29,377 nucleotides of DNA from a virus (IMGVR_UViG_3300030406_006012:1-29377), one strand, 5' to 3'; shown: positions 16,362 through 29,111, counted from the stretch's first letter. The notes: generated by a model not told the origin, from the sequence alone. Numbers and translations: made by a program.

Positions 16362-17690
16362 TTATATGAAATCCATCTCATACGACGCGATACGATTTTC
16401 CGCATCAATTGGAAATTCTTGTGCTATATAATAACCCAATGCGTCGGTCAAGTGTGTCAATCTGCTATCTTGTTTTTTGTCTATTTCACCTGCCCCACCC
16501 TCTAAAACACGCACACCTTCAAGGTCTTTGTGCAAATTGGGTGTGATTGCTGGGTTAATAGCCAAAAGATTTAAACCCAAAGCAGTTTTGAGTCTCGCAT
16601 TAACAGCATTAACTCTTTGCCTTTCTCTTGGGTTACTGCGTGCGACCCTGTTGACAATACGGTCACCGAAGAAACCGCTAAGTTCTTCCTGTATTATATC
16701 CCAATCACTGCCGCGAACCTGTGCCGTCCCTTTTGCCCCTCCAGTTGCATCACCATATAAATATATCGTTCCCTCTTGTACTTTCCAATCTTCTATTAAC
16801 CTATTGCACACGATCGGCGTGTTTGAGTTACGTGGGATATAAACCTCGCCAATAACAGCGGTGCCCCAATGTCCATTGCTGAGTAATTGCTCTTGCGTAA
16901 TTACTGCAACGCCCGGAGACACGTTGAAATCAAAACAAAAATTTATAGGATCATCCGGATTGTAATAAATTTCGCTCGTTTGATTATCTTCGCTGTAGGC
17001 GTGATATGCTTGCCCTTGAAAATTTACAAAGGACGCTTCATACTCTTGTTGAAATGTAAGTTCATCCATCATCTGCTTGGCGGCATTTATTTCTTTTTCG
17101 GGCAAGATTAATGAACTGACCCAATGATATGCGCCCCATTCAGATTCAGAACCTTTTTCCATCATTTGGCTTTTTGCGTATGTATGCAAATCATAATAAT
17201 GGTTACGGCCTTCTGGCACACCGACAAAATCACACCAACCTTGTCTATCAGAAAGTGCAGGTCGTATGTGCGCCTCCCAGACGTGCGGTTTCATGTTTGC
17301 GTATTCGTCAAGCACACCACCGTCCCAACCGACACCTTCAATCCGCTCTGGCTTATCCATACCAAGCACATGAATTTCTGCCCCATTCTTTAACCGTATA
17401 ATCAGTTCGCCTTCAAGTGGTTCACCTCTGCGCCATGAAGGATGCACTAAAGATTTAAGATCAGACCAAAATATCCTTTTAGCTTGGTCGCGTGTTGGTG
17501 CGCCACAAAAAAAACGTGGGTTCGGATAAGGCGAACCGCGCAAAGCTCTGTAAACTAATCTTCTTTTCCCGATTAACTCAGTTTTGCCGCTACGCCGACC
17601 GCAAGGAAATGTATTGAATCTATGTTGCCCGTTAAACGCTTCAACTTGCTCGCGTATCGGCCGTAATGGCGTCCATCTATCTGTTAGCAT
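16362..17690 (-). CDS. terL: Terminase large subunit
   Basis: A 442-aa packaging motor. The N-terminal ATPase shows Walker A GRRSGKTE (residues 31-38) and a Walker B-type strand ending VLDEYA (126-131, Asp128-Glu129). FQQEYEASF (213-221) is the typical link region. The nuclease domain starts with CFDFNVSPG (Asp254), continues with YLYGDATGG and ends with DSRLTHLTDALGY, giving the acidic metal ligands. Length and motifs are complete. Its ATG overlaps the end of the small subunit gene by 14 nt. The packaging mode (pac or cos) cannot be read directly from this sequence. Confidence 0.95.
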   Translation of the reverse strand: MLTDRWTPLRPIREQVEAFNGQHRFNTFPCGRRSGKTELIGKRRLVYRALRGSPYPNPRFFCGAPTRDQAKRIFWSDLKSLVHPSWRRGEPLEGELIIRLKNGAEIHVLGMDKPERIEGVGWDGGVLDEYANMKPHVWEAHIRPALSDRQGWCDFVGVPEGRNHYYDLHTYAKSQMMEKGSESEWGAYHWVSSLILPEKEINAAKQMMDELTFQQEYEASFVNFQGQAYHAYSEDNQTSEIYYNPDDPINFCFDFNVSPGVAVITQEQLLSNGHWGTAVIGEVYIPRNSNTPIVCNRLIEDWKVQEGTIYLYGDATGGAKGTAQVRGSDWDIIQEELSGFFGDRIVNRVARSNPRERQRVNAVNARLKTALGLNLLAINPAITPNLHKDLEGVRVLEGGAGEIDKKQDSRLTHLTDALGYYIAQEFPIDAENRIASYEMDFI

Positions 17691-18234
17691 TAACGTTGGC
17701 TGTCATATTTTCAATTTCAGAAAGTGCTTTACTGAATTCTTTTGCGACCGTACTTGCATCTACTGTATCGCTTTGGGCAACTTCTGCTCTTGTTTTTATA
17801 AGTTGCCCCATGCGACCCATGAATTTGTCTATTATAGCATCGTAATCTGGGCGTTTGCGTGTCATTTCTCTGCGTGTCTGAGTTGCTCCTGTTCCATTCC
17901 TATCTGAATCACCTTGCACCTGCTTGATTTCACTCGTCTCAAAACCTACTGTGATGTCCTCTGGTTGTTCCTCGACTTCTTTGCGTGCTATCATAGCCCT
18001 GCGTATTCTGAGCTTACACAGGCGTATCTCATCATCTACAGCGGTTACATCTATGTTTTTATAGATCTTTTTTTCTTCTTTTGTAAGGCCAGACTCATAT
18101 ATACCGTGTTTCACAGCTTTTTTGTTCCCCCACTGTTGTGTGGATTTGCCTCCGTGCATTCGGCAACGTCCGTTGGGCATTGCTCCGTTTTTACAGGGTT
18201 CTCCCCCTCTTGTTTTTGCTCCGCAGAATGCCAT
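17677..18234 (-). CDS. terS: Terminase small subunit (HGGKS-type)
   Basis: A 185-aa protein starting MAFCGAKTRGGEPCKNGAM, then GRCRMHGGKS (residues 22-31) and KKAVKHGIY. The Cys-Thr-Cys-Cys-His pattern followed by 'HGG.S' and 'A.KHG.Y' marks a family common next to large terminase genes and often annotated as small terminase. The four Cys/His may bind zinc. The C-terminal half is helical and ends in a coiled coil. The ATG lies 1 nt after the stop of the membrane protein gene and there is no clear Shine-Dalgarno, so translation is probably coupled. It recognises phage DNA for packaging. Confidence 0.75.
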   Translation of the reverse strand: MAFCGAKTRGGEPCKNGAMPNGRCRMHGGKSTQQWGNKKAVKHGIYESGLTKEEKKIYKNIDVTAVDDEIRLCKLRIRRAMIARKEVEEQPEDITVGFETSEIKQVQGDSDRNGTGATQTRREMTRKRPDYDAIIDKFMGRMGQLIKTRAEVAQSDTVDASTVAKEFSKALSEIENMTANVNANR

Positions 18235-18235
18235 G

Positions 18236-18655
18236 TTATTTACATTGTATGTCGGACACTTTTAAGCGCATTACCTCAATTTGTTTTTCTATGTATTCTA
18301 TTTTTGTGTTTTGTATCGCATCATCTGGTAATGCGCCAATCGTGCCACGTGGCCAATTTGTAGAAAAATAGCTATTTGCGTCCGTGTCTTTGCGTAACAG
18401 CATTAAATCTACTTCAATCCCTGTATTCTTCTTTTCAAGGTCAGAAAGGCGCATGCTATGGTCGTGTATCACTGATTCTTGTTTGCTTATTTCTTCTACT
18501 GCCCGTTGTAATTTCTGTTGCGATTCAAAAACGGCAGAAATCTGATCCCACCCAAACCATAATGCTACGCCTCCAGCCAATAGCATGATAAGTAAAATAC
18601 CTGCTTCTTTTGAGAGCTTTTCAACTGCGCCTTCTGTATCAAGTGCGTCTGACAT
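18236..18655 (-). CDS. One-TM membrane protein with coiled coil, possible lysis or holin-like protein
   Basis: A 139-aa protein with a single predicted membrane segment (AGILLIMLLAGGVALWFGW, residues about 18-36), then a coiled coil (residues 44-85). It ends with a segment NWPRGTIGALPDDAIQNTKIEYI (residues about 98-120). No signal-peptide cleavage site is evident. Its position upstream of terminase in the late arm, with the endolysin also upstream in that arm, makes a role in lysis (holin or spanin-like) possible. One TM and long coiled coil are unlike a classical multi-TM holin. GAGG lies 7-8 nt from the ATG. Confidence 0.5.
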   Translation of the reverse strand: MSDALDTEGAVEKLSKEAGILLIMLLAGGVALWFGWDQISAVFESQQKLQRAVEEISKQESVIHDHSMRLSDLEKKNTGIEVDLMLLRKDTDANSYFSTNWPRGTIGALPDDAIQNTKIEYIEKQIEVMRLKVSDIQCK

Positions 18656-18676: not shown

Positions 18677-19675
18677 TCACTTTGCCCCTAACAGGCGTTC
18701 GTATTCTGGTAATATAATAAGAGGCGCGTGTTTTTTCAGTAGGTCTTTTGCTGATTTCAAACGTTTTTTTTGCGTTTCTTTGCCTTTGCCCCTCAAGATC
18801 TCTGTCAGTTCATGTTCGTCAGAGGCGAAAAGTGCCGCATTTTTCACTGGTGTATCGGGCACATTATCAACCCATTTTTTATTTAAAATGAGGTCGGCAC
18901 CTCCGTTCCAAGCCTCAAGGAACGTGTATTGAGTGCCGCCACCATCTTTGGCAATAACTGACATATCTACTACATACTCCGCTGATGCTGTTTTTTTAAC
19001 TGCAGAATCCCATTCTAAAGGAAATCGCCCATAATAGTTTTCTTCCCATTGAGGGGTAGCTTCTGCTAATTTATGATAAGCGTAAAGCCTGTTCACCTCT
19101 CCGTATATGGCTACGCGATTGCTGATATCAAGCTGTTCGTTTGCTTTTGCTATTATTTCGGTGTGTTTATCAAAATCTATACGCGACAAAGCAATCGCAT
19201 GGTGCTTTTTTTCCACCTTACCGATTTTAATAGGGTCATACGGATGAGGTATATACACAGAGGGAACTTGCAGTTCAGCGAGATTATCTACATTGCAAGC
19301 TCTAATTGAAATGACTTTTGTTTTATACCGCTGTACGCATTTTAATAAATTAGGATCATATTCTGTCGGGTCGTGCAAGACAAGGTGTGCATTTTGCTTG
19401 AGAAGTTGCCTAATCGGCTCGCTGTATTGCTTCCAATAAGCGGCCACTATAATAGTCGGTTGCGAACTTGCAATGTTTATAGCGTCAAGCAGGGATACAT
19501 TTTGATATTTCACGTGCCCATTGAAATTTCTTTTTTTCGCTTCCGTTTTTTTCCCTATCTTGTATAGGGAAGGCACATAACCGCCGACACTGAACGTTCG
19601 GTGTAAGTGGCTTGTATAACTAACGAAACCACCAAAACGCACATTGCACAAAAAGAACAATGCTATATTCTTCAA
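18677..19675 (-). CDS. GT-B glycosyltransferase, probably acting on phage DNA
   Basis: A 332-aa protein. It starts MKNIALFFLCNVRFGGF with the beta-strand plus Gly-Gly loop (residues 14-17) of GT-B N-terminal domains, has the interdomain YIPHPYDP segment (141-148) and ends with a donor-binding C-terminal domain whose DGGGTQYTFLEAWNGGADLIL (about 244-264) contains the Glu254 position that contacts the sugar nucleotide in GT4-like enzymes. The start is a TTG at 19675, 7 nt after the stop of the dioxygenase. No membrane helix or signal is present, so it works in the cytoplasm. Its direct pairing with a TET/JBP-like oxidase suggests it glycosylates hydroxymethylated bases; a role in host surface sugars is the main alternative. 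Confidence 0.78.
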   Translation of the reverse strand: MKNIALFFLCNVRFGGFVSYTSHLHRTFSVGGYVPSLYKIGKKTEAKKRNFNGHVKYQNVSLLDAINIASSQPTIIVAAYWKQYSEPIRQLLKQNAHLVLHDPTEYDPNLLKCVQRYKTKVISIRACNVDNLAELQVPSVYIPHPYDPIKIGKVEKKHHAIALSRIDFDKHTEIIAKANEQLDISNRVAIYGEVNRLYAYHKLAEATPQWEENYYGRFPLEWDSAVKKTASAEYVVDMSVIAKDGGGTQYTFLEAWNGGADLILNKKWVDNVPDTPVKNAALFASDEHELTEILRGKGKETQKKRLKSAKDLLKKHAPLIILPEYERLLGAK

Positions 19676-19681
19676 AGCATA

Positions 19682-20596
19682 TCATTTCTGTGAATTATTT
19701 GTTTTATTTGCATTTGCCAACCTTGCAATGCCTTTTCTTCTTTGTTCAGTGAATTTTTTTCTACCATCAGAGTTATCTTTGTACTCTGTATCAACTGCTC
19801 TTTTCTTGAGTTGACCCCTTCTATACGTACGGGCATACTTGAGTTCTTCATCTGGCGTAAGACACTGCCACATCTGTTTTAACGAGTAATAAACGAGTGT
19901 ATATCTATACCCATTTTGTGCTATTTTAAAAGGCGCGACACCATGCAATATAGCTTGCCCATCAAAAATCATCAGTGAATGATTTGTAGGACTGATGCCT
20001 ATATTATACTCGGGCATTAATAGTTCGCCACCTTCTAAGTCTTTAGTAAAACATAGCATACACGATAAAACGCCATTGAAGTTGCCCCGATCATAATGAT
20101 ACGGAAGAAAGTTATCGTAGTTGGCTATGCCAGACGTAAATACAGATTCGCCCATACGATAATCTTCGCGGACGGTTTTAACTACAGTGCTGTGATGGCT
20201 GTATTCATCAACGAAATATTTTTTGTATGTTTTTTCTATCTCATCGGCGAAATTACAAATTATTTGCGCAGGTTTTGGTTGTTTAGCGTGCAGATCGGCG
20301 TACGAACAAAATGGTCCCCGTATATGGTCTCTTGGCTTGAATCCGAATATTCTACTTGTTGATTGTATGCCCGAACCACGTGCCGCTTTGTTATATTCAA
20401 TAACTTTGACCGCTTGGCGCACTGAATTCAAGTGAGGGGATTCAATGGGAATAGAGATTGCAATCCTCTTCCCATCGCATTCAATTGAACACGGTGCGCC
20501 TACTATTTGTTCGACATCAGTTTTTTCAGCGTATCGTTTATTTGCCTTTTCTACAGCAAAATCACGTTTTTTTACTTCAACCTTTTGCAGTTCCAA
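19682..20596 (-). CDS. TET/JBP-family 2-oxoglutarate/Fe(II) dioxygenase, base hydroxylase
   Basis: A 304-aa protein. The double-stranded beta-helix shows His167-Tyr-Asp169 (YHYDRGNF), a Gly-Gly turn with ELLMPEYNIG (189-200), the distal iron ligand His218 (ILHGVAPF) and Arg231 in RYTLVYYS for 2-oxoglutarate. FTSGIANYDNFLPYHYDRG and 'FDGQ..LHGV' are typical of phage members of the TET/JBP clade (residue pattern recalled, not searched). The N-terminus (GSGIQSTSRIFGF, about 74-86) is the conserved start of that group. Start is TTG at 20596 with a GAGG 6 nt upstream; it overlaps the ParB-like gene by 20 nt. The expected reaction is hydroxylation of the methyl group of thymine or 5-methylcytosine in DNA. 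A proline hydroxylase-like enzyme is a less likely alternative. Confidence 0.78.
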   Translation of the reverse strand: MELQKVEVKKRDFAVEKANKRYAEKTDVEQIVGAPCSIECDGKRIAISIPIESPHLNSVRQAVKVIEYNKAARGSGIQSTSRIFGFKPRDHIRGPFCSYADLHAKQPKPAQIICNFADEIEKTYKKYFVDEYSHHSTVVKTVREDYRMGESVFTSGIANYDNFLPYHYDRGNFNGVLSCMLCFTKDLEGGELLMPEYNIGISPTNHSLMIFDGQAILHGVAPFKIAQNGYRYTLVYYSLKQMWQCLTPDEELKYARTYRRGQLKKRAVDTEYKDNSDGRKKFTEQRRKGIARLANANKTNNSQK

Positions 20597-21257
20597 TCGT
20601 TTCCTCTGCTTGTCTTACCAAGTATAAAAGCAAAGATGACGGATCATCTATTGACTCATCTATTTCTAATTCAATAAGATTTTCCATGCTATTTATGATT
20701 TCTGTATACTCATCTTGCTGAAAATAAAGTATGATTTGAGAAATGGCACTTGAAACTGCCGGACCAACGGTTTCCTCGTTGATATTGTCGTTTTCGTAAT
20801 TTGTTTCATTGGGTTGACTATAATCATCATAAAATGCCGCCCGAAATCTATCTTCATCTATTTCGGGCATTTCCAATAAATCCCAAGAACGTAAATCTAT
20901 ATTAAACTTTTCTGTGAATTCATACAGACCTTGCTCTGTTTCTTTACCATATGCTGAGCTTGCTAATAAAACAAGCTCAGCCGCTTGTTTTTCTGTTTTG
21001 GCAACTATTTCAACGACAGGCACACCACCGACGATGTTGAATCTTTCGTTCTTTATGACTCTCAATCTCTGGTGGCCGTCTAAAAGATAATTTTTACCCT
21101 TCCAGATAAACATAGGAAAAGCAAACCCATACTTCATAATTGAGTTTTTTAGACGATTATATGATTTTACGTGTAGTGTTTTTAGTTCGCCTTGAAACTC
21201 TAACAACTCTTCTACGCTCAAACGCTTTGAGGCTTCGCAGGTAACATTAATGTCCAT
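20577..21257 (-). CDS. ParB/sulfiredoxin-fold protein of the DNA modification operon
   Basis: A 226-aa protein with the ParB N-terminal (ParB/Srx) fold: KNYLLDGHQRLRVI (55-68) has the DGHQRL core (Asp60 to Leu65), preceded by the 'LK.SI.KYGF..P' helix-strand and followed by LVLLASSAYGKE, as in phage ParB-like proteins often linked to DNA methylases. The C-terminal part (from about 120) is acidic and helical, ending with QIILYFQQDEYTEI. No methyltransferase is fused here. Its 20-nt overlap with the TET/JBP-like gene and shared operon suggest it aids DNA modification, perhaps as a nucleotide-dependent specificity factor. The role is inferred. Confidence 0.72.
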   Translation of the reverse strand: MDINVTCEASKRLSVEELLEFQGELKTLHVKSYNRLKNSIMKYGFAFPMFIWKGKNYLLDGHQRLRVIKNERFNIVGGVPVVEIVAKTEKQAAELVLLASSAYGKETEQGLYEFTEKFNIDLRSWDLLEMPEIDEDRFRAAFYDDYSQPNETNYENDNINEETVGPAVSSAISQIILYFQQDEYTEIINSMENLIELEIDESIDDPSSLLLYLVRQAEETIGTAKG

Positions 21258-21258
21258 G

Positions 21259-21459
21259 TTAATTTGTTTTACCTTTCTTAGCGTTTTCCTCTAACCATTG
21301 CAACACTTCTGTTTTACGAAAGCGTATAGTTTTACCTATCCGCATATGCGGTATTTCTAATTGTGCGACCCATTTACGTATTGTTGACTCTTTGACGTGC
21401 AACAACTCTGCAACTGCGCGCACTGGCAATAATTGTTCTTCTATATCATTTTGCATCAT
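21259..21459 (-). CDS. Excisionase/MerR-like helix-turn-helix protein
   Basis: A 66-aa protein built almost completely of a HTH: LPVRAVAELLHVKESTIRKWV then MRIGKTIRFRKTEVLQWLEE, the pattern of the excisionase-type 'helix_turn_helix, MerR-like' family with Arg-rich wing. I choose the ATG at 21459 (or the next, 21456) because it overlaps the TAA of the preceding gene (TAATG) and AGGA lies 4-7 nt upstream, rather than the longer frame from 21498. It is 1 nt upstream of the ParB-like gene. It may regulate this operon or be a recombination directionality factor, but no integrase is visible. Confidence 0.72.
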   Translation of the reverse strand: MMQNDIEEQLLPVRAVAELLHVKESTIRKWVAQLEIPHMRIGKTIRFRKTEVLQWLEENAKKGKTN

Positions 21460-21767
21460 TACGTCCTTTTTTTGGTTTTTAACCAGTTGTCTATGCATTC
21501 TGTCTTGATGTTTTTTGACTCTAAATACATCCTTGCCGGATTATTTTTATTTTTCAAGTAAGTAAGTGGGTCAAGGCAACTCAACAAGTAATTGTATCTA
21601 ACATACGTTTTTATGTTTGCGTTCCTATCTTCGGCTTTTTCTAAAAATTCATGGTCTCTTTGCGCTTGTTCTAATATCGCCACCGATAATTTCGCATATC
21701 CGTCCATTTCAGTATTGGGTTCATATATTGCAGTTGCTTGCTTTTTTGAAAGATCCCTGTATTCCAT
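21459..21767 (-). CDS. Small hypothetical protein after the endolysin
   Basis: About 102 aa if it starts at the ATG at 21767 (MEYRDLSKKQATAIYEP...), 1 nt after the endolysin stop; longer starts are possible (ATG at 21785, or up to 21905 inside the endolysin gene). The coding frame ends in TAA overlapping the HTH gene. The product is helical and charged with LEQAQRDHEFLEK near the middle and a Lys-rich end. It has no signal peptide or membrane segment. I do not recognise it. Tight coupling with endolysin and the HTH protein places it in the same operon. Confidence 0.6.
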   Translation of the reverse strand: MEYRDLSKKQATAIYEPNTEMDGYAKLSVAILEQAQRDHEFLEKAEDRNANIKTYVRYNYLLSCLDPLTYLKNKNNPARMYLESKNIKTECIDNWLKTKKRT

Positions 21768-21768
21768 A

Positions 21769-22191
21769 TCAGTATGACCAAACATGCGGACGAGGAGCGT
21801 TTTCTTTGCTTTCTGCGGAGTCAAGATGTATGAAGCGGTTTTTCCCCGTTTGGCTGATCCCAAATCCTGTAAAGCCGATTTCAAGAGCTTCTTTGAGTAA
21901 AACAACTGCTTGCGCGCCCTGAATTTTTACATCAACAGCGCAACCAAGCGTATGTGTGCCTCCTTTGCTTTTTCCTTCTTCTATTTTTTTCGCTTCTATG
22001 CTATGCGTAATGTCTCTGTACGCAGACGTTATGTACAGTGGAAAACCTACGTTTTCTCTAAGTGTTTGCAATTTGTCCATAAATTCATCGTCCATTTTAC
22101 AAATAAACGATTCTTTGCATCGCATTTCTGCATAAGTAAAGTTACGCCACCGATCAGTAGGCCAACTGTCCTTCGTGTATTCTTTTTGCAT
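21769..22191 (-). CDS. Peptidase M15-type endolysin (D-Ala-D-Ala carboxypeptidase-like)
   Basis: A 140-aa enzyme with the peptidase M15 zinc site: GGTHTLGCAVDVKI gives His80 and Asp87, and RFIHLD gives His122. The substrate loop YITSAYRD (residues 53-60) is also typical. The ATG at 22191 is chosen because AAGGA lies 7-8 nt upstream; a longer frame to 22296 would lack a start site of this quality and would overlap the leader hairpin. It cuts peptidoglycan cross-links or stem peptides at lysis. There is no signal peptide and no cell-wall binding domain, so it would need a holin. The first gene of the minus-strand arm. Confidence 0.85.
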   Translation of the reverse strand: MQKEYTKDSWPTDRWRNFTYAEMRCKESFICKMDDEFMDKLQTLRENVGFPLYITSAYRDITHSIEAKKIEEGKSKGGTHTLGCAVDVKIQGAQAVVLLKEALEIGFTGFGISQTGKNRFIHLDSAESKENAPRPHVWSY

Positions 22192-22208
22192 TGGGTTTCC
22201 TTTAGAAA

Positions 22209-22278
22209 GGCCGATGGGCGTCGACTTGAGTCCAAAAGTCTTGCAAGGGGAGGAAATGACCCTGCTCGCCCATCGGCC
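22209..22278 (-). other. Leader inverted repeat before the endolysin gene
   Basis: GGCCGATGGGCG (22209-22220) pairs perfectly with 22267-22278, enclosing 46 nt that contain a smaller GACTT/AAGTC repeat. It ends 6-10 nt before the AAGGA of the endolysin. In the minus-strand transcript this is a 5' leader fold. No T-run follows directly, so it is a regulatory or RNA-stability element rather than a terminator. Confidence 0.5.
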
Positions 22279-22317
22279 GTGAATTTTTGAGTGCAAAGCG
22301 CCAAACCATAGTGTGGG

Positions 22318-22534: not shown

Positions 22535-22643
22535 CCGCTTGTCCTGCAATCGTTTAGGAAAATGACTCTTCCCCAACTCTTACCTGCCTATTTATTTACT
22601 GTTCCTAAATATAATATTTTCATTGACTTACACTTTTTTTCCT

Positions 22644-22690
22644 AAAAAGCGTATTTTTTACTTTACAAATTAGCGACCATAACTTATCTT
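22644..22690 (+). promoter_or_regulatory. Right-arm promoter copy P1
   Basis: TTTACA (22662-22667), 17 bp, TATCTT (22685-22690), preceded by AAAAAGCGTATTTTTTAC. The spacer ends in CCATAACT and TTCTATTGTTGTTA follows. The 5' end of the first right-arm gene would be about 40 nt before its ATG. This is the first of five near-copies (23303, 23861, 25487, 29017). Confidence 0.8.
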
Positions 22691-22736
22691 TCTATTGTTG
22701 TTAAGAAACCACCACACTTTCAAACGGAGAATCAAA

Positions 22737-23291: not shown

Positions 23292-23302
23292 ACGTTTTTT
23301 AT

Positions 23303-23351
23303 AAAAAAAGCGTATTTTTTACTTTACTTTTTATCTGCCATAGCTTATCTT
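23303..23351 (+). promoter_or_regulatory. Right-arm promoter copy P2
   Basis: TTTACT (23323-23328), 17 bp, TATCTT (23346-23351), behind AAAAAAAGCGTATTTTTTAC. The segment after the -10, TTCTATTGTTGTTAGGAAACCACCACACTT, is almost the same as after P1, showing a duplicated promoter-leader cassette. Confidence 0.8.
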
Positions 23352-23370
23352 TCTATTGTTGTTAGGAAAC

Positions 23371-23387
23371 CACCACACTTCACGGAG
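23371..23387 (+). repeat. Repeated leader CACCACAC...CGGAG (family of at least eight copies)
   Basis: CACCACAC followed after 3-7 nt by CGGAG(G) and then, 5-9 nt on, a start codon. Clear copies begin at 22710, 23371, 23579, 23928, 25659, 26276 and 27114, with a shorter CCACAC copy at 29087 and a looser CACCATAATGAACGGAG at 24911. CGGAGG alone precedes the TTG at 25123. Copies occur with and without an upstream promoter, so the conserved half upstream of the ribosome site must act in RNA. A translation enhancer or RNA-binding protein site is likely. Confidence 0.75.
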
Positions 23388-23840: not shown

Positions 23841-23860
23841 ACTTTAATTAAAAAAAGTGA

Positions 23861-23909
23861 AAAAAAAGAGTATTTTTCACTTTACAAATTAGTCGCCATA
23901 GCTTATCTT
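23861..23909 (+). promoter_or_regulatory. Right-arm promoter copy P3
   Basis: TTTACA (23881-23886), 17 bp, TATCTT (23904-23909). The spacer holds AGTCGCCATAGCT, close to the other copies; a run of A (23861 on) and GAGTATTTTTCAC precede it. Confidence 0.8.
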
Positions 23910-23952
23910 TCTATTATCATCATTTAACACCACACTTCACGGAGGCTTTAAA

Positions 23953-25464: not shown

Positions 25465-25486
25465 TTAGACTTTTTTTACGTTTTTT

Positions 25487-25537
25487 TAAAAAAAAGAGCA
25501 TTTTTCTCTTTACAAATTATCTACCATAGCTTATATT
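25487..25537 (+). promoter_or_regulatory. Right-arm promoter copy P4
   Basis: TTTACA (25509-25514), 17 bp, TATATT (25532-25537), the only copy with a different -10. GAGCATTTTTCTC precedes it and TTCTATTAACGTTGAA follows. It drives the small membrane peptide and the Rad52-like gene. Confidence 0.8.
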
Positions 25538-25571
25538 TCTATTAACGTTGAAACAAAGGTTGAGATTTATC

Positions 25572-25682: not shown

Positions 25683-26273
25683 ATGAATAATGAAACCATC
25701 AACAGTCGGCTTAATGCTGATCTAAATAGTCGCCACGTAAGCCAACGGCAACAAGGCACGATGAACCTATCGTATCTTGAGGCTTGGTTTGTCATTGATC
25801 AGATGAATCAGATTTTCGGCTTCACCGCATGGGACAGAGAAACGCAAACGATGTTGGAATTTGCTGAAGAGCGTGACGGTAAGTTTTACGTTACCTACAC
25901 AGCAAAGTGCATTATAACAGTGAGCACAAGCTCCGCACAACTGACGAGGACCGGTCATGGCGTTGGTCACGGTAATGGCATACGCGACAAGGGATTAGCT
26001 CTTGAGTCAGCAATGAAGGAAGCAGAAAGCGATGCTATGAAACGTGCCTGTATGACGCTGGGCAACCAGTTCGGTCTTGCGTTATACGATAAAGCGCAAG
26101 CATGTGTCGTTGACGAAGGACACCAAAATAATTTTATAGAATACGTTGAGCAAGCAAATATCGACACCGAAACCTTGATATCACTGCTCGGAAGTTATGG
26201 TGCTGAGCGATTAGAAGATGTTCCGCAGAGGCACTATAAGTCATTCACTGATGCAATTAAGCGCATACAATAA
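25683..26273 (+). CDS. Rad52-family single-strand annealing protein
   Basis: A 196-aa protein that matches the Rad52 annealing fold: LSYLEAWFVIDQMNQIFGFTAW (29-50), the beta sheet YVTYTAKCIITV (69-80), RTGHGVGHGNG (89-99) and KEAESDAMKRACMTLGNQFGLALYD (112-136). These are diagnostic for Rad52/22-type proteins. It forms rings on single-stranded DNA and drives annealing in phage recombination and replication. The C-terminal part is short and lacks an eukaryotic extension. ATG at 25683, 6 nt after CGGAG. It belongs to the P4 unit with the next genes. No partner exonuclease or single-strand binding protein is in the window. Confidence 0.9.
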   Translation: MNNETINSRLNADLNSRHVSQRQQGTMNLSYLEAWFVIDQMNQIFGFTAWDRETQTMLEFAEERDGKFYVTYTAKCIITVSTSSAQLTRTGHGVGHGNGIRDKGLALESAMKEAESDAMKRACMTLGNQFGLALYDKAQACVVDEGHQNNFIEYVEQANIDTETLISLLGSYGAERLEDVPQRHYKSFTDAIKRIQ

Positions 26274-27075: not shown

Positions 27076-27138
27076 TCAGATAGAAAAAAACGTTTATATT
27101 TGTTCAAATCAACCACCACACCACACGGAGATTTAAAA

Positions 27139-27849
27139 ATGCAACAATTAGAATCGTTACATACGCTTGATATCAAGGGTGAAATTTGTGATGCTTCGCA
27201 TATAATCAAAAGCATTTCAATGATCGGGCAACGCATCCCTATCATCGTTACGCCCACTGAAGGCGAATATAAATATAAGGTGCTTGACGGAAACAGGCGT
27301 TTATGCGCATTGAAACAACTGTCTGAAGAAAAGGTTGACGCCTACGTAGTGACTAATACAGCGGAATACAATGCTATCACTACGCTTGTTGCTAACATAA
27401 GTAGAACGAGAAACGTGGCCGCTGAAAGCGATGCACTCGTCACATTGCAAGCGGAAGGTTTGACAGCGAAGGAAATATCTGAGCAAACAGGACTACCACT
27501 GCGCAACATCACAGAGCTTGTTGATTTACGGGGGCAATTAATAGCAAAAGCATTTACGATGTTGCGTGAGGGCAACATGTCGTTAAGCACGGCTAAACGT
27601 TTACAGCGTTTAGAACCAAATGCACAGGAAGAACTCATATTAAATACGGAAGGACGTTTGCGGGGCAAAGATGTTGAGAGCGCACTACGAGCAGAAAATA
27701 ATAAATTGCTACAAGAAATTGCTCAGATCCCTGCTGTGACAACAGGCCATAGTATAATGGCATCCCAACTTGATCAGTTAGCTCAAAAATTGACGGGTGA
27801 AAAGCGTAAGGTAATAATTAATGCGGCCGAAATTATTAGGGGTCTATGA
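27139..27849 (+). CDS. ParB/KorB-like DNA-binding protein
   Basis: A 236-aa protein: ParB N-terminal fold with VLDGNRRLCALKQL (48-61; DGNRRL core, Asp50), then a HTH LTAKEISEQTGLPLRNITELV (about 108-128), the KorB/ParB order, and a helical tail. ATG at 27139, 8 nt after CGGAG. Its TGA overlaps the next ATG (ATGA at 27846). ParB-like phage proteins bind centromere-like DNA, but no ParA gene is visible, so replication or transcription control is equally possible. It differs from the shorter ParB-fold gene in the left arm by having the HTH. Confidence 0.82.
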   Translation: MQQLESLHTLDIKGEICDASHIIKSISMIGQRIPIIVTPTEGEYKYKVLDGNRRLCALKQLSEEKVDAYVVTNTAEYNAITTLVANISRTRNVAAESDALVTLQAEGLTAKEISEQTGLPLRNITELVDLRGQLIAKAFTMLREGNMSLSTAKRLQRLEPNAQEELILNTEGRLRGKDVESALRAENNKLLQEIAQIPAVTTGHSIMASQLDQLAQKLTGEKRKVIINAAEIIRGL

Positions 27850-28640
27850 TGACCGGATTTATCCTATTATACCGTGATTACCTTAATCATCCTATCTGGA
27901 GAACTGATGAATGGACACGTCGCACTTGGGAGTTTTTACTCCTAAGTGCGGCACACAAAGGCAACGCACAACAACGGGGGACGCTTATCGGCACGTGCGA
28001 GTTAACATACAGCCAGATAGTTGAGGGGACGTATTACATAGAAAATGGTTCAACGCTTAAAAAAATATCACGCAATAAACTGAACAAAGTAATCAAATAC
28101 TTACAAGAAAACGACATGATTACTTATAAAGCACAGCAGGGAAAATCAATAACGATTACAATTACGAACTGGCATAAATGGCAACACCCGAAAGAGCACG
28201 CTTTCGTTAAAAGCGATGTTGACTTTAATAATATAAAGGAATCTAAACCCGATCCGAATTTTAGCAGTGGCGCGTTGATGGAATTATGGGGTCGTGATAA
28301 TTTGCCGAACTCACCGCACTACAGCGCACATGAACTTGTGTTGCATCAACTACACGTACAACCACCGCACTATAGTTTTGATGATCTGTCTCACATTATA
28401 ACCAATGTAAAAAAATATAAAAACGACGGATTGGAATTCGTTTGGAACAGCGGACCGATACGGTTAAATAAAACTATACACAAAACAGGACAATTGGTTG
28501 CAGAGTATTGTCTTAATTTTAAAGGGTTTGCTAAGAATGGAAAAGCTATCAGAAATCGCACAGAACGCATTGCCCACGGAAATGAATTACTTGACGAACT
28601 CCTCGCACCACAAGCAAACGCTCAAAGACGTATTGGGTGA
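27846..28640 (+). CDS. Replication initiation protein, O-like
   Basis: A 264-aa protein with the winged-helix start common in phage replication proteins: MTGFILLYRDYLNHPIWRTD, then LTYSQIVEGTYYIE and NKLNKVIKYLQENDMITYKA (the winged helix, about 78-115), with ITNWHKWQH closing it. C-terminal half unrecognised, moderately helical, ending in a basic segment (AQRRIG). Order ParB-like, O-like, and a small P-like protein fits an initiator-loader pair as in lambda. Start overlaps the previous stop by 4 nt. Confidence 0.75.
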   Translation: MMTGFILLYRDYLNHPIWRTDEWTRRTWEFLLLSAAHKGNAQQRGTLIGTCELTYSQIVEGTYYIENGSTLKKISRNKLNKVIKYLQENDMITYKAQQGKSITITITNWHKWQHPKEHAFVKSDVDFNNIKESKPDPNFSSGALMELWGRDNLPNSPHYSAHELVLHQLHVQPPHYSFDDLSHIITNVKKYKNDGLEFVWNSGPIRLNKTIHKTGQLVAEYCLNFKGFAKNGKAIRNRTERIAHGNELLDELLAPQANAQRRIG

Positions 28641-29019
28641 TAAGACAGAAGCGTTTCGCGCAATTATGAAGCGGTTGAGCGCAGAGTATAACTGGGAATT
28701 TACCAAAGAGGACGTGCATACTTGGGCTGAGTTTGCTTCGGTCTGTAGTGAAACAGAATTTTCAACTGCTGTTGGCATGCATTTTACAGATACGAGCATG
28801 ACAAGCGCAGGGACACCGACCTGTACGTTTCGGCCGAAGGTCGGGCAAATAGCTATGCACATTGAAACAATACGGGAAAACAATAAACGCAAACAGAACC
28901 GCAAAGATCAAGCTGAAAAGAATAAACAATGGAAAGAGGAAAAGGCCGAAATACCGTTTGTTTCTGAGCAAATGCGTATAATTCGTGAAAAAAATCCGTT
29001 TTTATTTAAAAAACCGTAA
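28537..29019 (+). CDS. Possible helicase-loader-like protein
   Basis: About 160 aa with start at ATG 28537 (MEKLSEIAQNALP...); the frame could start further up (28498) or at the ATG at 28582. It overlaps the O-like gene by about 100 nt in another frame. Residues about 60-105 (WAEFASVCSETEFSTAVGMHF and FRPKVGQIAMHIETI) resemble helicase-loader domains where a helical pair precedes a 'P+.G.I...I' helix. The C-terminus is very charged (KRKQNRKDQAEKNKQ). Loader role is a suggestion from position and this pattern only. Confidence 0.55.
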   Translation: MEKLSEIAQNALPTEMNYLTNSSHHKQTLKDVLGDKTEAFRAIMKRLSAEYNWEFTKEDVHTWAEFASVCSETEFSTAVGMHFTDTSMTSAGTPTCTFRPKVGQIAMHIETIRENNKRKQNRKDQAEKNKQWKEEKAEIPFVSEQMRIIREKNPFLFKKP

Positions 29020-29066
29020 AAAAAGCGTATTTTGTCCTTTACAAATTAGCTATGATAGCTTATCTT
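29017..29066 (+). promoter_or_regulatory. Right-arm promoter copy P5
   Basis: TTTACA (29038-29043), 17 bp, TATCTT (29061-29066). AAAAAAAGCGTATTTTGTCC precedes it and TTCTATTAACGTTAA follows. It overlaps the stop of the preceding gene and starts a new transcription unit. Confidence 0.8.
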
Positions 29067-29111
29067 TCTATTAACGTTAATTCAAACCACACTTCAAGCG
29101 GAGATTAAAAA

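Follow-up and report, generated by a model that had tools for sequence, protein, structure and literature searches.

A predicted thymine oxidation-glycosylation cassette with a new GT-B glycosyltransferase family beside the terminase genes of a tailed-phage record

Base J is beta-glucosyl-hydroxymethyluracil in DNA. The trypanosome pathway that forms it (JBP1/2 and JGT) hydroxylates thymine in DNA and then glycosylates the resulting 5-hydroxymethyluracil (5hmU), and it resembles the locus described here in predicted chemistry; the locus differs in being a phage operon with a ParB-fold gene. Thymine-oxidising phage systems that combine TET with ParB had reportedly already been predicted by Iyer et al. 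in 2013. In cultured representatives of such TET/JBP systems the usual partners are kinases and transferases of amino acids, and glucosylated 5hmU in phage DNA had not been reported as of 2019 (PMC6449724). TET and glycosyltransferase genes also share an operon in the methyltransferase-TET-glycosyltransferase systems for cytosine hypermodification (Burke et al. 2021), from which our locus differs in having no C5-methyltransferase, as do nearly all of its relatives. The system class is thus known as a prediction, and what is new here is a glycosyltransferase family, the fact that it is associated with 5hmU by two routes, and the cassette exchange. The locus represents a compact candidate enzyme pair for glucosylated 5hmU, together with a glycosyltransferase family that has no library match.

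The stretch analysed (the window, 29,377 nucleotides) comprises bases 1-29377 of a 33,639-base IMG/VR virus record, the structural genes of which (portal, capsid and tape measure) are of the tailed-phage type. On the minus strand the gene order is HTH, ParB-fold protein, oxidase, glycosyltransferase (GT), a 139-aa ORF, TerS and TerL, with the following features:

21259-21498, minus strand: HTH_17/excisionase-like small DNA-binding protein (PF12728, 8.4e-14)
20577-21257, minus strand: 226-aa protein of the ParB fold, a conserved partner to the oxidase (ParB-like phrog_620/723, and phrog_498)
19682-20596, minus strand: TET/JBP-family 2-oxoglutarate/Fe(II) dioxygenase of 304 aa that is predicted to hydroxylate the C5-methyl group of thymine in DNA (Tet_JBP, HxD/H/R)
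18677-19675, minus strand: 332-aa glycosyltransferase of GT-B type from a phage family with no assignment, predicted to act on 5hmU in DNA (model and context)
18236-18655, minus strand: ORF of 139 aa that separates GT from TerS and contains a hydrophobic segment (weak spanin/DivIC-like matches)
17677-18234, minus strand: terminase small subunit (TerS), the downstream anchor of the cassette (phrog_1889, 1.6e-17)
16362-17690, minus strand: terminase large subunit (TerL; phrog_2, 1.3e-34)

The oxidase starts at a TTG codon with a ribosome-binding site, GAGGA, ahead of it; its ORF overlaps that of the ParB-fold protein by 20 nt, and GT begins 6 nt past its end. A previous, sequence-only reading had placed the HTH, ParB-fold, oxidase and GT genes, all on the minus strand, correctly, including a GT within 7 nt of the oxidase, a ParB-fold gene preceding the oxidase with overlap and an operon adjoining the terminase genes, a position that proved to be fixed across dozens of phages. 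That reading had also counted the HTH protein as part of the operon; the HTH gene is not kept at the equivalent place in relatives and is probably a neighbour outside the cassette core. The 139-aa ORF was likewise rejected as a core part, because the nearest relatives (L017 and L018) run directly from GT to TerS. This ORF, with its weak spanin-like match, and an M15 peptidase endolysin on one flank of the cassette (21769-22296, minus strand) may represent a lysis module around it. In PADLOC neither TET nor GT matched a defence system.

The oxidase passed the curated cut-off of the Pfam Tet_JBP profile (PF12851; 37.6 bits against 34.9), and the scores of its relatives reached 91 bits. The iron ligands His167, Asp169 and His218 (HxD...H) and the 2-oxoglutarate-binding Arg231, to which the sequence-only reading had attributed a TET/JBP character, were invariant among 13 aligned phage sequences, and the profile score upholds the same assignment. 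When compared to the PDB, a profile of the oxidase family matched human TET2 (8e-7), Naegleria TET (0.002) and CMD1 (0.003), with prolyl hydroxylases absent from the matches up to E = 1, so the grouping with prolyl hydroxylases that had been named as counting against the assignment did not occur. TET/JBP proteins were also seen under the label 'queuine tRNA-ribosyltransferase' in RefSeq and phrog_6059 (e.g. KayaCho gp2 and LilMcDreamy gp2), which on actinophage proteins is apparently a spreading annotation error.

By sequence, GT had no match in Pfam, PHROG, NCBIfam, phage tblastn or the PDB, none to the Pfam profile of the TAGT glycosyltransferases (PF20691), and none in a scan of the genome contigs. 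An AlphaFold (AF2) model built from 23 sequences reached a pLDDT of 93.8 and a pTM of 0.91, compared to a pLDDT of 34 from the GT sequence alone. Foldseek comparison of this model to the PDB gave 347 matches with E <= 0.001; those listed, 50 in number, are GT-B-type glycosyltransferases, and the matches include retaining GT-B and GT4-type enzymes. T4 alpha-glucosyltransferase (AGT) with hydroxymethyluracil DNA (1y6g) was in the top 25, with a TM score of ~0.72 over the query, and the viral fold matches included DNA alpha-glucosyltransferases as well as SP-15 glycosyltransferases. AGT shares the GT-B fold and acts on hydroxymethyl-pyrimidine DNA, but at 14 % identity the window GT belongs to another family, for which the expected target base is 5hmU. 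The modelled fold and its structural matches place GT among the GT-B enzymes, a class with two Rossmann-like domains, and its C-terminal half carries a near-invariant DGGGTQYTFLE stretch and SRxDFDK. The GT-B assignment proposed previously, which the sequence searches did not return, is therefore backed by a confident model and a fold search that agree, and GT represents a new GT-B family, unrecognised by the family libraries searched.

A tblastn search with the oxidase found 90 phage records, nearly all of them actinophages. Among the closest cultured relatives, complete operons in Hangman, CloverMinnie and Tonitrus have the order ParB-TET-ADDT-P-loop kinase-terminase. Pfam identified the amino acid:DNA transferase (ADDT) in both Hangman and Tonitrus, and in Hangman also Ploopntkinase3; one cultured-relative record calls its TET 'thymidine hydroxylase'. 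These operons share with the window the TET/JBP family (28-34 % identity), the ParB partner, the pre-terminase site and the absence of a C5-methyltransferase, whereas the window has a GT-B enzyme where they have a kinase and an amino acid:DNA transferase. Neither of the latter two was found in the window operon, which is thus not of the actinophage kinase/ADDT type. The window architecture recurs in Arthrobacter phage Altadena (ParB-TET-TAGT glycosyltransferase-deacetylase), which has been cultured, and in dozens of IMG/VR contigs with ParB-TET-TAGT order; Bumble is another cultured phage with ParB-TET-glycosyltransferase-deacetylase genes. The TAGT phages also use a glycosyltransferase as the tailoring enzyme, although theirs is TAGT (PF20691) and the window GT belongs to a different family with no named-family match. 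In Mycobacterium phage LilMcDreamy an aspartyl/asparaginyl hydroxylase-like protein lies two genes past TET (L014:2656-3759) and is possibly an extra oxidation step.

Single-sequence searches of IMG/VR with TET and with GT returned no relatives, and alignment searches were needed for both. The alignment search for the oxidase gave 432 relatives, of which the best 80 were read. Among these 80, the position of ParB was testable at 74 loci, and at 72 of them it lay no more than three genes upstream of TET; for TerL 77 loci were testable, and 72 had it within three genes on the downstream side. The conserved block is ParB-[tailoring gene]-TET-TerS-TerL, in which the tailoring gene is interchangeable; it was TAGT-like in 69 loci (by iterated profile), of the window GT type in 5 and a kinase in 3. 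Five IMG/VR examples of the TAGT-like genes were compared to Pfam, with three above the cut-off, one just below it and one unmatched. In a tree of 55 TETs the window clustered with L017 and L019 (98-99 % SH-aLRT), and the tailoring labels required 22 changes on this tree. It contains no published methyltransferase-linked phage TETs as a reference clade, because the Cr30/DLP6-type contrast set yielded such TETs in 0 of 50 cases. One replacement of the cassette is directly visible, as L037 and L035 have flanks that are 94.5-95.6 % identical, whereas the middle gene encodes a GT-B enzyme in one of them and a TAGT-like protein in the other. The predicted 5hmU-decorating gene is a swappable module (kinase/ADDT, TAGT or the window GT-B), and its exchange between near-identical loci suggests that swapping modules is how these phages alter the coat on their DNA in the arms race with restriction.

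In IMG/VR the alignment search for GT located relatives at 35 loci. TET/JBP was present in 19 of the 35 records. A further 14 lacked TET, and there GT lay beside a thymidylate-synthase-family (TS-family) gene, an HMUDK_hel gene (helical domain of 5-hmdU DNA kinase) or both. Altogether 33 of the 35 loci are in 5hmU-type contexts, with L102 and L124 in neither group. The complete copies of HMUDK_hel that were scored gave 1e-27 to 1e-53. The TS-family protein has Asn and no Asp in its specificity motif, in an alignment that is shifted by one residue. Under the Asn177/Asp177 rule, Asp marks the dCMP enzymes (PMC8670742), and the Asn would favour a thymine-type route, although owing to the shift this is suggestive, not firm. 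Contigs of this kind (L106, L112, L118 and others) carry the same GT-B family near 5-hmdU genes, but there 5hmU is apparently made as a nucleotide and not by a post-replicative TET. The two groups of records tie one GT family to 5hmU by two synthetic routes. A Pfam-confirmed radical SAM/SPASM protein was observed near HMUDK_hel, GT and TS in L106 and a similar protein in L121, both contigs being of 63-73 kb, and these possibly represent an unusual thymine pathway with a radical step.

The previous reading had noted that no cytosine-5 methyltransferase was visible and had left a thymine pathway open. No PF00145 C5-methyltransferase was found in the whole 33.6-kb record or in any of 13 complete phage relatives (0/13). 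Among TET-related contigs one of 50 had a match over the cut-off, with G042 a partial match, and among the 35 GT contigs one had a complete gene (L125/G077, 3.3 kb upstream of TET), the principal exception, giving about two in roughly 80 related contigs overall. Four lines of evidence now make the thymine pathway the best-supported reading: the cultured TET relatives adjoin genes for thymidine hypermodification (ADDT and P-loop kinase); a C5-methyltransferase is missing from each of the 13 complete relatives and from almost every related contig; TET-less relatives of GT adjoin HMUDK_hel and a TS-family enzyme with Asn; and dozens of phages keep the operon in a fixed place next to the terminase genes. 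The locus has adjacent, terminase-linked ParB and TET genes and no C5-methyltransferase in its record, the features by which a thymine hypermodification cassette was defined. The TAGT partners are no guide to the base, since enzymes of this family act on hmC too, and TAGT of T6-like phages is assigned to hmC (PMC13390438).

Taken together, this evidence makes a post-replicative cassette converting thymine to 5hmU and then to glycosyl-5hmU the best explanation for the locus, one that we hold with good but incomplete confidence. The ParB-fold protein would engage or target phage DNA. The oxidase probably converts thymine in this DNA to hydroxymethyluracil, by a hydroxylation of the 5-methyl group that its family, context and residues predict. 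GT, judged by its modelled fold and its context, probably caps 5hmU with a sugar, moving it from a nucleotide-sugar donor to the hydroxymethyl group and so yielding a base-J-like glycosyl-5hmU. This mark may block host restriction or other nucleases, and the modification is probably complete before or during packaging, because the cassette genes adjoin the terminase. The cassette is thus likely to be a phage counterpart of trypanosome base J that shields DNA from host defences. More tentative is the fuller picture of a ParB-guided TET/JBP and a new GT-B acting on finished DNA, with a plug-in GT that also occurs in phages forming 5hmU as a nucleotide, swaps at one locus that alter the sugar coat, and methylation of some sugars. 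Glycosyltransferases specific to 5hmU would be useful reagents for mapping this base.

The main rival is a cytosine route, in which TET oxidises 5-methylcytosine supplied by the host or by a missing phage methyltransferase and GT glycosylates the resulting 5hmC. The best characterised phage TETs act on 5-methylcytosine (Burke 2021, cited in PMC12730594), and the methyltransferase of L125 lies close to its ParB-TET-GT genes. The record has no end repeats and contains a 10-N gap, so that a phage methyltransferase gene may be missing from it, and a host enzyme could also provide the substrate; the C5-methyltransferase that characterises the cytosine systems was not found in this 33.6-kb, possibly incomplete record. 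The record's own methyltransferase was rejected as a source of 5-methylcytosine, being 197 aa long with no PF00145 match and no Pro-Cys motif. We consider this route unlikely given that PF00145 is absent from 13 of 13 complete phages, 49 of 50 TET contigs (over the cut-off), 34 of 35 GT contigs and the record itself, and that TET-less relatives of GT adjoin genes of the 5-hmdU-kinase type. It is less probable still that the oxidase and GT act on something other than DNA bases, such as RNA or, by glycosylation, a virion protein, and that the terminase neighbourhood is incidental. GT-B folds do glycosylate proteins, and the top fold matches include protein O-GlcNAc transferases, but the constant ParB-TET-tailoring-TerS-TerL order in dozens of phages, the fold match to T4 DNA alpha-glucosyltransferase and the identity of the alternative tailoring partners as DNA-thymine enzymes all argue for a DNA target.

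A further reading is compatible with the thymine oxidation-glycosylation cassette and would refine it, namely that the GT product is an intermediate whose sugar is further methylated or extended to give a larger hypermodified thymine. A class-I methyltransferase is encoded past the window end (record 29737-30330; L001:738-1331), may take part in the modification pathway and could conceivably methylate the sugar. It matches an O-methyltransferase domain, and in L100 the protein encoded between TET and GT is 62 % identical to it; FkbM methyltransferases occur beside TET (L009 and L090) and beside or near GT (L114 and L118), and a deacetylase follows TAGT in Altadena. However, the class-I methyltransferase was present in only 1 of 37 related records, lies 9 kb from the cassette here and is of a kind that is common in phages, and we regard this extension as possible but somewhat doubtful.

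Several other elements were observed in the record. At the window end a run of 10 N (record 29378-29388; L001:379-388) lies between the inverted repeats GGGCAGGGT and ACCCTGCCC and is an assembly gap at a likely hairpin. The plus strand carries a replication/recombination arm with a Rad52-type recombinase (25683-26273), a second ParB-like protein (27100-27849) and a DnaD-like helicase loader (27846-28640). An 86-nt intergenic element is present in five plus-strand copies (22634-22719, 23295-23380, 23853-23938, 25481-25566 and 29010-29095), which are 64-86 % alike to the first and share a promoter-like core, TTTACA-17-TATCTT. Most of these are followed by ACCACACTTC...GGAG ahead of plus-strand genes, and the copies probably act as early promoters that have a leader in common.
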